Part shown: in pieces, positions 54,870-58,443 of the stretch
How the letters are laid out: each line of letters opens with the position of its first letter
Position numbering within the stretch: the stretch's first letter is position 1
Assembly: GCF_000736415.1 (NCBI RefSeq)
Contig: NZ_CP009043.1
Span: 1,488,001-1,552,000, forward strand
From: Campylobacter iguaniorum
GTDB lineage: Bacteria > Campylobacterota > Campylobacteria > Campylobacterales > Campylobacteraceae
Direction: 5' to 3'
Length of the DNA stretch: 64,000 nt
Program-made: the position numbers and the translations under genes
The notes under the pieces: generated by a model
What the model was told of the DNA's origin: nothing
Database searches by the model: none
What the model saw: the letters and a program-made list of their open reading frames with translations, nothing else

Positions 54870-56042
54870 ATGAATTTAAAAACAATAAAACCACTTGATA
54901 ATGATTATCTTCAAAGTATAGGATTTAGCTGGCATACAGATCCAGACAACACACCATATATCGCTGATGAGCTTGTAGAGGTTAGCAGTGATGAGTGTGA
55001 GGCATATTACGACGCGGCAAATGAACTTTATGATATGTTTGTCGCAGCAGCCCAGTATGTGATAGACAATGACCTTTTTCACGAGCTTGGGATTCCTTTT
55101 AATCTAATCGATACAATCAAACAAAGCTGGGAAAATGAAGTCCACTGGCATCTTTATGGCCGTTTCGACTTCGCTGGCGGGACTGGTGGTAAGCCGATTA
55201 AATTAATCGAATTTAACGCCGATACGCCAACAAGCGTCTTTGAAACAGCCATAATCCAATGGGCTATGCTTAAATTTAACAGTCTTGATGAGGGCAAACA
55301 ATTTAATGATTTGTACGATGGTTTGGTCGAAAATTTCAAACGCCTTGTCACGTTGGACGAGGATACAAGCAGTTTTGATGAACATTATGAGGGCTGGAAA
55401 ATTTTATTTAGTTGCATAAGTGGTAGCGATGAAGATGAAAGCACTACAAGACTACTTCAAAGCGCAGCGAATGACGCTGGATTTGAGACCAATTTTTGTT
55501 ATGTAAACGACGTGAGTTTTGATGATGAAAACGGTATTTTTTATGATGGTCAAAACTACGAATACTGGTTTAAACTTATCCCTTGGGAGAGCATTGCTAT
55601 AGAAGAAGGCGAGCTAGCCTTGATACTCAAAAACATCATAAATAACCAAAAAGCCATAGTCTTAAATCCAGCCTACACACTGCTTTTTCAAAGCAAAGGC
55701 ATTATGAAAATTTTATGGGATTTATACCCAAATCACCCACTTTTGCTAGAGAGTAGTTACGAGCCACTAAGCGGCAAAAAACAGGTCAAAAAGCCATTTT
55801 TAGCTCGCGAAGGAGCAAATGTCACATTGCTTGATAATGACGGAAATATCATTAAAGAAAATGGCGGAAGCTACGGCAATGGTAAATTTTTGTATCAAGA
55901 GTTTGCCGAGTTTGACAAAAGTGGCGATGAGAGCTATCAAGCTGGGGTATTTTTCGCTTTTGAAGGATGTGCGCTTGGCTTTAGAAAAGGCGGCGACATC
56001 ATCGATAACTACTCTAAATTTGTCGGTCACATCATAAAATAA
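54870..56042 (+). CDS. glutathionylspermidine synthase-like ATP-grasp ligase
   Basis: This 390-residue protein matches the GSP synthase C-terminal (ATP-grasp) family: GRFDFAGGTGGKPIKLIEFNADTP is a hallmark (read GRFDFAGG and LIEFNADTPTS), then LLESSYEPLSG and the end GFRKGGDIIDNYSKFVGHII. These ligases join an amine to a peptide carboxylate. Campylobacter is not known for trypanothione-like chemistry, so the true substrate is open. It shares one base with ubiX. C. jejuni Cj0372 is the counterpart. Confidence 0.85.
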   Translation: MNLKTIKPLDNDYLQSIGFSWHTDPDNTPYIADELVEVSSDECEAYYDAANELYDMFVAAAQYVIDNDLFHELGIPFNLIDTIKQSWENEVHWHLYGRFDFAGGTGGKPIKLIEFNADTPTSVFETAIIQWAMLKFNSLDEGKQFNDLYDGLVENFKRLVTLDEDTSSFDEHYEGWKILFSCISGSDEDESTTRLLQSAANDAGFETNFCYVNDVSFDDENGIFYDGQNYEYWFKLIPWESIAIEEGELALILKNIINNQKAIVLNPAYTLLFQSKGIMKILWDLYPNHPLLLESSYEPLSGKKQVKKPFLAREGANVTLLDNDGNIIKENGGSYGNGKFLYQEFAEFDKSGDESYQAGVFFAFEGCALGFRKGGDIIDNYSKFVGHIIK

Positions 56043-56587
56043 TGAAAATAATCGTTGGAATAACTGGAGCAAGCGGAGCAAATTTAGGCGTAAAACTGGC
56101 AAATTTATTGCCAAATTTAGGTCATGAAACCAGCGTGATTTTAAGCGACGCAGCTAAAATTTCGCTTGAAAAAGAGGGGTTTGAGTCTAAATTTAATGAG
56201 CAAATTCATATTTATTCTAACGATGAAATTTACGCCCCAATGGCGAGCGGATCGGCTAAATTTGATAAAATGATAGTGGCACCTTGTTCTATAAACTCAC
56301 TTGCCAAGATAAGCTGCGGCATCGCTGAGAGTTTGATTTTAAGGGCGTGTGCTGTAACGCTTAAAGAAAAAAGAGAGCTGATTTTGGGCGTGAGAGAAAC
56401 CCCGTTTTCGACCATTTCGCTTATGCAAATGGCTGAGCTTTCTAAGCTTGGCGTCATCATCGCACCACCAGTTTATGGGGCTTATAGTAAGGCAAAAAGT
56501 ATAGATGAGCTAGAAAATTTCATCATAGGTAAGTGGCTAGATCTACTTGGCGTGGAGCATGAAATTTACAAAAGATGGAGTAAATAG
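56042..56587 (+). CDS. ubiX: UbiX-type flavin prenyltransferase
   Basis: This 181-residue protein has the family start IIVGITGASGANLGVKLANLL and the conserved VAPCSINSLAKISCGI and RETPFSTISL stretches. It attaches a prenyl group to FMN, giving the cofactor of UbiD-type decarboxylases. In futalosine-pathway bacteria a UbiD-like enzyme (MqnL/MqnP-linked step) needs it for menaquinone, so it complements mqnA of this window. No UbiD homologue is adjacent. Confidence 0.9.
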   Translation: MKIIVGITGASGANLGVKLANLLPNLGHETSVILSDAAKISLEKEGFESKFNEQIHIYSNDEIYAPMASGSAKFDKMIVAPCSINSLAKISCGIAESLILRACAVTLKEKRELILGVRETPFSTISLMQMAELSKLGVIIAPPVYGAYSKAKSIDELENFIIGKWLDLLGVEHEIYKRWSK

Positions 56588-56682
56588 CCCAAATTTAAAA
56601 TAATTTTTGCCAAATTTACAAGTTGTAAATAATATTTTTGTAAATTTCAGACAATTTAAACCATAGAAATTATAAAAACAAA

Positions 56683-56803
56683 GGCGAAGTATTTTTTCGC
56701 TAGACAAGGCGATTTTAAAATTTAGAAAAGAGCGGACTAAACGTCCGTGACTGACTAAATTTAAAAATCAACAAAGTCTAGTAGAAAAAAGATGAGCCGC
56801 AAA
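56683..56803. repeat. structured intergenic repeat, copy A (about 120 bp)
   Basis: Copy A begins GGCGAAGTATTTTTTCGC and ends GCCGCAAA. It is about 96% identical (four differences over 110 bases) to copy B at 57806-57926. It is largely self-complementary: CTAGAC...GTCTAG, then GATTTTAAAATTTAG with CTAAATTTAAAAATC (one mismatch), and an apical GCGGAC-type stem (CGGACTAAACGTCCG). It ends directly before the ribosome site of the next gene. It contains no convincing frame. Confidence 0.75.
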
Positions 56804-56812
56804 GGAAAATAT

Positions 56813-57745
56813 ATGAAAATAGTATGCTTAGACGCCGATACCTTAGGCAACGACGTAGATTTAAACCAGTTTTTTTCCAAATTTGGAGAGTTCATCAGTT
56901 ACCCAAAAACAGAAGCCAAAGACACAATAGAGAGACTAAAAGACGCTGATGTGGTGCTCACAAATAAAGTTCTCATCACCAAAGAAGTCCTTGCAAACAC
57001 TAGTTTAAAGCTCATTTGTGTGACTGCAACAGGGGTAAATAACATAGACCTTGAAGCAGCCAAAGAAGCTGGCGTAAGTGTCAAAAACGTCGCTGGATAC
57101 TCCACTTCTAGCGTCGCACAGCAGACTTTTGCAAACCTTTTAGCTCTTAGAAACCAAACAAGTTATTATGATAGCTACTGCAAAAGCGTAGAGGGCTGGG
57201 CGAAGAGTGAGATTTTCGTGCATTTAAATAAGCCGATTTTTGAGCTTAGCGGCAAGAGTTTTGGCATCGCGGGGCTTGGAAGTATCGGCAAAAGCGTCGC
57301 AAACATCGCCAAAGCCTTTGGCTGCGAAGTCTGCTACTACTCAACAAGTGGCAAAAATGACAATAACGAGTTTAAAAAAGTGAGTTTTGATGAACTTTTA
57401 AAATGCGATATTATCAGCATTCACGCTCCGCTAAACGCCGATACTAAGGGACTTTTTGATGAAAAAGCCCTTTTAAATTTAAAAAACGGCGCGACTTTGA
57501 TGAACTATGGTCGTGGTGGAATAGTAGATGAAACTGCCATTGCAAGGCTAGTTGATGAGCGTGAGATCTACTTCGCAACTGACGTACTTGAAACTGAGCC
57601 GATGAGAGCCGATCATCCGTTTTTGAGTGTCAAAAACAAAGACAGATTGCTTCTTAGCCCACACATCGCTTGGGGAAGCGTTGAAGCTAGAAAAAGGCTT
57701 TTGGAGCTTGTTGTCAAAAATATTGAGGATTTTTATCAAATTTAG
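56813..57745 (+). CDS. D-2-hydroxyacid dehydrogenase (NAD-dependent)
   Basis: I start at ATG 56813, seven codons inside the longest frame (56792), because AAAGGA lies just before it and the longer form would include the repeat. The 310-residue protein has the NAD fold GLGSIGKSVANIAKAFG, an arginine-glutamate-histidine-type active site (GRGGIVDETAI, DVLETEPM, LLSPHIAWGS). The substrate (glycerate, hydroxypyruvate or another 2-hydroxyacid) cannot be told; Cj0373 is the counterpart. It is flanked on both sides by the structured repeat. Confidence 0.87.
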   Translation: MKIVCLDADTLGNDVDLNQFFSKFGEFISYPKTEAKDTIERLKDADVVLTNKVLITKEVLANTSLKLICVTATGVNNIDLEAAKEAGVSVKNVAGYSTSSVAQQTFANLLALRNQTSYYDSYCKSVEGWAKSEIFVHLNKPIFELSGKSFGIAGLGSIGKSVANIAKAFGCEVCYYSTSGKNDNNEFKKVSFDELLKCDIISIHAPLNADTKGLFDEKALLNLKNGATLMNYGRGGIVDETAIARLVDEREIYFATDVLETEPMRADHPFLSVKNKDRLLLSPHIAWGSVEARKRLLELVVKNIEDFYQI

Positions 57746-57760
57746 ACAACCTTTACAAAG

Positions 57761-57778
57761 TCTCGCAATGACAAATTT
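57761..57778. repeat. half of the REP-like palindrome of 35590-35621
   Basis: TCTCGCAATGACAAATTT is identical to the reverse complement of 35605-35622. The second arm is degenerate (GCATTGAAAA). It lies 15 bases after the dehydrogenase stop and 27 bases before repeat copy B. Confidence 0.6.
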
Positions 57779-57805
57779 GCATTGAAAAATCAAATAAAAA
57801 TAAAA

Positions 57806-57926
57806 GGCGAAGTATTTTTTCGCTAGACAAGGCGATTTTAAAATTTAGAAAAGAGCGGACTAAACGTCCGCGACTGACTAAATTTAAAAATCAACACCGT
57901 ATAGTAGAAAAAAAACAAGCCACAAA
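57806..57926. repeat. structured intergenic repeat, copy B
   Basis: Second copy of the element at 56683-56803, same orientation, 1123 bases apart. Differences inside the 110 aligned bases: T to C in the apical stem (making it GCGGAC/GTCCGC, better paired), AA to CC, and the right arm GTCTAG changed to GTATAG. It is followed by the ribosome site and start of yajQ. Confidence 0.75.
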
Positions 57927-57945
57927 ATAAACCAAAGGAGACATT

Positions 57946-58443
57946 ATGGCAGACGAACACAGCTTTGATATAAGCGCTAGCGTTGATTTGATGGAAGTCA
58001 AAAACGCTATTGAAACTTCTAAAAAAGAGGTTGGCTCAAGGTTTGATTTCAAAGGGCTAAAAGCAGAGATTGACTTAAACGAAAAAGACAAAACCATAAC
58101 TCTTTTGAGCTCAAGCGATTCAAAAATCGACGCTTTAAAAGACATAGTCATAAGCAAACTCATCAAACGCGACATTCCACCAGTTGCGATAACTGAGCTA
58201 AAAAGAGAAAATGCAAGTGGCGCAAACACCAAATGCACGCTCAAGCTCAATGATACGCTTGATTCAAACAATGCCAAAAAAATCACAAAAGCTATCAAAG
58301 ATGAGAAGCTAAAGGTAAATGCGAGCATTCGCGGCGAAGAGGTGCGAGTAACTAGCAAGTCAATCGATGAGTTACAAGCTGTAATTAAACTAGTAAAAGG
58401 GCTAAATTTGGAGCTTCCACTTAGCTTTAGAAATTTAAAATAA
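57946..58443 (+). CDS. YajQ family nucleotide-binding protein (UPF0234)
   Basis: This 165-residue protein matches Yaj[21 protein letters not shown] and [12 protein letters not shown] near the start, and [21 protein letters not shown] later. The family binds cyclic di-GMP or RNA-like ligands in some bacteria; the role in Campylobacter is not established. AAAGGAG precedes the ATG. It lies in the conserved order dehydrogenase-yajQ (Cj0373-Cj0374) and is followed after 10 bases by a DsbA-like gene. Confidence 0.92.

Follow-up and report, generated by a model that had tools for sequence, protein, structure and literature searches.

A pair of near-identical repeats in a 64-kb stretch of the Campylobacter iguaniorum genome (positions 1,488,001 to 1,552,000 of contig NZ_CP009043.1; this whole stretch of 64,000 nucleotides is called the window in the following) probably represents two insertions of a non-autonomous mobile hairpin of ~121 nt, which belongs to a phylum-wide family in the Campylobacterota and would insert as a folded strand, right end first, at gene boundaries. 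The repeats, here termed copies A and B, lie in the same orientation at 56683-56803 and 57806-57926 on either side of a D-2-hydroxyacid dehydrogenase gene and are built as nested inverted repeats, as an initial annotation of the window had described; their identity amounts to 113 of 121 positions (93.4 %) rather than the about 96 % given there, and a longer match of 135 nt (56674-56808 and 57797-57931) retains 91 %. Both right ends stop just ahead of a ribosome-binding site, ~10 nt (A) and ~20 nt (B) before the ATGs at 56813 and 57946, also in line with the initial annotation. The repeat ends where the hairpin ends, without a 1-kb duplication, and the genome contains four copies in total, with more in other genomes; a restriction to two copies and a tandem duplication of the 1-kb flanks had been named at the outset as findings that would speak against a mobile or RNA element.

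BLAST searches also returned diverged copies from further species and genera; the ends of these copies are similar, and their middle helices are unrelated in sequence yet still pair. With a covariance model made from nine copies (R1), the family was found in 55 of 150 Campylobacteraceae genomes, reaching 44 copies in one draft genome, and a larger model (R2) detected it in 117 of 397 Campylobacterota genomes from 28 of 68 genera and seven families, carriers including C. concisus and C. showae. Copies A and B match R2 with E values of 7.5e-25 and 3.6e-25. A third model (R3), built from 15 copies of other species only, aligned with MAFFT and with the structure chosen by RNAalifold, likewise recognized copy A (E 5.8e-25) and copy B (E 2.9e-23) and no other place in the window, and it also recovered the other two copies of this genome in locus L005; its 15 sequences had been collected with R2, which makes the test independent in sequence, not in member discovery. 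A model built without the query genome hence recovers the copies of that genome. The two copies outside the window flank, in inverted orientation, a NAMPT-like (nadV-type) gene (L005:7295-8674; G000 C1 ~83,294-84,673) that has nrdD on one side and a radical-SAM (nrdG-like) gene downstream. The Rfam scan of 16 other loci at gathering cut-offs reported only rRNA, tRNA, and signal recognition particle (SRP) RNA. Plasmid and phage searches for the family gave no matches; viral contigs yielded one diverged copy and one further pattern match that was not confirmed by the model. As literature searches on palindromic repeats, structured RNA, rRNA spacers, and miniature inverted-repeat transposable elements (MITEs) in Campylobacter and Epsilonproteobacteria did not retrieve a description of the family (which is not proof of absence), these ~120-base hairpins are apparently undescribed.

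Selection maintains the fold of the element, which is strand-specific. Among 104 distinct copies, standard pairs occupy 92.9 % of the pair cells as compared to 38-43 % in slid controls, two-sided change occurs at 39 of 41 pairs, and the covariation score of 0.607 exceeds that of shuffles (0.185) and of slid controls (at most 0.09). With covariation that exceeds the controls, and with the query copies recognized by a model that did not include them, the hairpins constitute a structured nucleic-acid family. Three internal-loop motifs are conserved, roughly GAAGTA/GACAA, GACRAGGC/CAACGAAGT, and GGAG/UGACC, the middle one (RAGGC/CAACGAAG) being the most conserved block of the family, and the segments between the loop motifs keep near-constant lengths of 26, 22, 19, 22, and 31 nt in 52 representatives with a median identity of 52 %. 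The inner helix is free in sequence while its pairing is kept family-wide, with two-sided change at 14 of 15 pairs (helices 6 and 7, alignment A4). In the same 52 representatives, G.U cells outnumber A.C cells by 138 to 32, or by 93 to 32 once the constant G.U pair that forms the foot of the apical stem is left out; since a G.U pair on one strand is an A.C mismatch on the complement, the left-to-right strand (GGCGAAG to GACAAGCC) is the folding strand. This apical G.U pair is found unchanged in 96 of the 104 family members. The T-to-C change of copy B (position 57871, corresponding to 56748 of copy A), which had initially been taken as compensatory and as a hint at selection on structure, turns it into G-C; the change is thus one-sided and leads away from the family consensus instead of compensating. 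Selection on structure is nevertheless strongly supported, namely by the family-wide covariation. When folded as RNA, the copies are more stable than every shuffle, with z scores of −7.5 (A) and −7.0 (B) on the + strand and of −4.9 (A) and −5.6 (B) on the − strand; folded as single-stranded DNA, they reach z scores of −4.7 to −5.2. Across the 64 kb, however, 2 and 6 of 1065 folding windows fold at least as well as the copies, so that folding energy alone is not distinctive and it is the comparative evidence that sets them apart from chance.

Comparison of related strains indicates that the copies are mobile, being gained and lost at otherwise unchanged loci. Strains carry one or two hairpins before the same gene stop at a C. 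concisus-like locus, where the extra hairpin (~124 nt) is bordered exactly by the stop codon on one side and by the other hairpin on the other. Downstream of a saccharopine-dehydrogenase-like gene, the hairpin that follows an identical junction varies from strain to strain. Empty sites, dispersal over 28 genera, and a single hairpin gained or lost between strains all bear out the non-autonomous mobile element that was among the options of the initial annotation, and the element combines the MITE traits of being short (~121 nt), non-coding, dispersed over many sites, and mobile (empty sites, gain or loss of one unit). The 3′ end of the saccharopine-dehydrogenase-like gene is, in addition, an integration hot spot, with unrelated open reading frames (ORFs) right at its stop codon in ~10 genomes (L179-L183, L186, L189, L190, L193, and L195, counted from this stop), among them a TIR-like protein common to two strains and other shared ORF pairs, and with hairpin arrays at this place in other strains. 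The shared ORFs are possibly defence genes; the idea that these insertions are cassettes was rejected, no family hairpin being present in those loci.

A gene lies within 30 nt of the right end in 99 of 124 copies, as opposed to 7 of 124 for the left end, and random removal of redundant sites leaves 49-52 of 58 for the right and 4-5 of 58 for the left end (sign test, p < 1e-7). In ~75 % of the copies the neighbour is encoded on the opposite strand and the hairpin mostly lies within 12 nt of its stop codon, in antisense; next to a same-strand neighbour, the hairpin usually stops just before the ribosome site. Adjacent hairpins are direct in 27 cases, head-to-head in eight, and tail-to-tail in none. 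No target consensus was found in the DNA flanking the element on the right side, and TATAAT-like hexamers, as of a left-end promoter, are not sharply enriched beside it. The simplest reading of this gene-edge rule is a right-end-directed insertion, its main rival being a functional demand at gene ends, that is, an RNA element such as an mRNA stabiliser, a processing site for RNase III or another enzyme, or a terminator-like barrier, which is kept there and spread by ordinary recombination. Such a role would agree with the conserved fold, with the terminator-like segments that both window copies contain on the − strand, and with the strict adjacency to coding starts and stops, a rule that also holds beside tRNAs, 5S rRNA, and SRP RNA and at ~30 nt from the 3′ end of 23S rRNA. 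We nonetheless consider it unlikely, as the adjacent gene transcribes the complement at ~75 % of the sites and not the strand favoured by the G.U test, as the neighbours have no gene function in common, and as close relatives possess empty sites and orthologous sites carry unrelated hairpins. The structured 5′ untranslated region (5′ UTR) suggested by the initial annotation applies in part: copies A and B are probably transcribed within the 5′ UTRs of the dehydrogenase gene and yajQ, respectively, as by-products of insertion whose effects on the mRNA would be secondary, but with about three quarters of the family lying antisense behind a stop codon, a 5′-UTR switch is not the general role. One-sided deletion after insertion, another conceivable cause of the gene-edge placement, keeps some probability but is less likely because the extra C. 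concisus-like hairpin sits between the gene stop and the older hairpin. A weak excess on one replication strand (with the origin assumed at base 1) was not used, as gene co-orientation alone could produce it.

The initial annotation had also considered a recombination site for the gene between the copies. A related idea is that the pair forms a composite unit that mobilises or duplicates this gene, or else a simple local duplication, and two direct copies around one gene, together with the inverted pair around another gene elsewhere in the genome, would be in keeping with a composite unit. The dehydrogenase gene, however, is found in 15 of 16 genomes of the genus, adjoins yajQ in no fewer than ten relatives within the genus, and occupies the same operon position in relatives that lack the hairpin: in all nine relatives inspected, the gap to yajQ is hairpin-free and only ~0-10 nt long, as compared to ~200 nt, copy B included, in the window genome. 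Judged from this synteny, the gene is ancestral in its place and not cargo, the pair is not a gene-carrying unit, and a recombination site for the gene is not supported; a local duplication is at odds with a repeat that ends with the hairpin. Both variants are refuted for the window pair and retain hardly any probability.

The coordinates of the two insertions, the motifs of copy A, and the surrounding genes are compiled below; the neighbourhood of the UbiX-like gene is the same in several relatives.

Table 1. Hairpin copies, structural motifs of copy A, and neighbouring genes (window coordinates).
Feature	Position	Strand	Remarks
Hairpin element, copy A	56681..56801	+	covariance-model bounds, full model length; left end AAGGCGAAGTA, right end ...GAGCCGCA
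Hairpin element, copy B	57804..57924	+	covariance-model bounds; left end AAGGCGAAGTA, right end ...CAAGCCACA
Copy A, basal motif GGC-GAAGTA	56683..56691	+	opposite ...GAGCC at 56794-56798; ends conserved in the family
Copy A, middle internal-loop motif GACAAGGC	56703..56710	+	opposite CAACAAAGT at 56769-56777
Copy A, inner helix GATTTTAAAATTTAG / CTAAATTTAAAAATC	56711..56769	+	arms 56711-56725 and 56755-56769
Copy A, apical motif GAGC-GGACTAAACGTCC-GTGAC	56730..56751	+	contains the G.U pair 56732-56748
UbiX-like flavoprotein gene, upstream of copy A	56042..56587	+	Pfam PF02441
D-2-hydroxyacid dehydrogenase gene, between the copies	56813..57745	+	Pfam PF02826, PF00389
yajQ (DUF520), downstream of copy B	57946..58443	+	Pfam PF04461

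With regard to how the element moves, strand asymmetry, fixed geometry, conserved loops, and free helix sequence together lead us to infer movement as folded single strands. A trans-acting factor would recognize the left-to-right strand in its folded form, be it ssDNA or RNA, via the loop motifs and their spacing, and would insert it right end first and without duplicating the target, the site being either a gene boundary or the right edge of an older hairpin. The ends of the element are complementary and differ in sequence between sites. A search for an autonomous partner by way of unpaired ends in three high-copy genomes (G129, G137, and G161) revealed no larger element that bears a transposase. 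What it yielded was confined to a second hairpin type and to hairpins that are longer, mosaic, or decayed.

Several points weigh against insertion of a mobile hairpin as the explanation. Transposition itself was not observed, a helper enzyme did not turn up, and target duplications could be judged at a single close locus, the C. concisus-like gain/loss site, where none is visible (other empty sites being too diverged for this purpose). None of the known movers of such hairpins would lead one to expect the strict placement at gene edges, which could instead stem from a function. Some copies are old and common to related species, so that inheritance explains part of the pattern. Furthermore, the G.U excess cannot tell RNA from ssDNA, and the 104-copy alignment was fitted to the model, although the MAFFT-only alignments A1 and A6 agree with it on covariation. 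A further-reaching proposal, that the hairpins constitute a new class of mobile elements that move as folded single strands, are recognized by loop geometry instead of helix sequence, and are inserted right end first and exactly at gene boundaries by a candidate machinery across the Campylobacterota, is put forward as a tentative and rather doubtful possibility. If mobile hairpins are indeed the correct explanation, a whole phylum, including Campylobacter species of people and animals, would carry mobile repeats conserved in structure, providing a natural system in which movement keeps shape and not sequence. This would raise the questions of what places DNA exactly at gene ends and whether ssDNA or RNA travels, and it would affect the annotation of 5′ UTRs and rRNA spacers, strain typing, and draft assemblies; the contigs of one carrier often end near the hairpin repeats.

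The surroundings of the hairpins offer several additional observations. In several genera, members reside in rRNA operon spacers, either between 23S and 5S or beside tRNA-Ile/tRNA-Ala (L050, L063-L066, L206, L207, L209, and L210), and several genomes hold three identical copies there, apparently one per operon. The repetition extends a further 200-300 nt leftwards from the hairpin in high-copy genomes (L069, L070, L094, and L099 of G129, similarly in G137 and G161), and these left flanks contain small palindromes, for example, CCCCACTGCACGTGAGAGG... and GGTGCGGGTCTCGGCGAG..., so that the intergenic regions are mosaics of repeats. The second hairpin type (L062, L069, L070, L103, and others) shares the basal GGCGAAGTA/GACAAGCC and differs in its apex (AAGGCTAGAC-loop-GTCTGCCG), some examples having the outer helix ATCGTGAG/CTCGCGAG. 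Contigs of genome G090 (L140-L159) carry direct arrays (beta-alpha, gamma-alpha-gamma-alpha) of hairpins from three subfamilies that differ in their helices, and these often adjoin two other repeats, GGATTGCCACG...CGCAATGACG and CCACCCCGCCC...CACCCCTCC. The end of the former is resembled by CTCGCAATGACAA at 57763-57775 of the window, to the left of copy B, which is possibly a remnant of another insertion.

Among known systems, ERIC and palindromic MITEs (Correia/NEMIS) are imperfect palindromes of ~100-150 nt that are non-coding and dispersed between genes, often co-transcribed, variable between strains, and devoid of a transposase of their own (PMC10969869; PMC1590033). The Campylobacterota hairpins resemble them in length, imperfect palindromy, non-coding dispersal, strain variability, and lack of an encoded transposase; for ERIC this is a likeness of kind only, as no ERIC consensus was compared and no sequence relation was found. 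In contrast to these elements, the hairpins keep shape, loop motifs, and helix lengths while the helix sequence is free, favour one strand, abut gene ends with their right end, and show no target duplication at the one locus examined. Their covariation is as strong as one would expect for a structured RNA family, whereas the window segment matches no curated Rfam model (none at E ≤ 1). Similarly to REP/REPIN elements, they are short hairpins repeated between genes, with single-strand specificity and no visible target duplication, but each consists of a single long hairpin, interrupted by three internal loops, and not of short REPs in pairs. Mobilisation of such elements by an IS200-like (RAYT, Y1) transposase is most improbable here, as this enzyme (PF01797) is lacking in the window genome and in nearly all carriers and matches 10 of 150 genomes, mostly non-carriers; as a general mover it is refuted unless a diverged Y1 protein escapes the profile. 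The attC sites of integrons, which are acted upon by a tyrosine recombinase while folded as single strands, share with the hairpins the strand-specific fold, variable helices with conserved unpaired bases, and direct arrays, and the newest-looking unit beside the anchor gene as well as the lack of a visible target duplication would also suit an integron-type system. This resemblance would be one of mode of operation, and an actual attC-like identity is quite improbable: integron integrase (TIGR02249) exceeds its curated cut-off in 0 of 150 genomes, with partial sub-threshold matches that also occur in all 14 control genomes and in non-carriers, the boxes RYYYAAC...GTTRRRY are missing from the ends, which read AAGGCGAAG...GACAAGCC or other complementary pairs, the arrays examined have no ORF cassettes between hairpins, and the anchors are many unrelated genes. 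ERIC, MITE, and REP elements are the nearest known systems in behaviour, and attC sites the nearest in anatomy.
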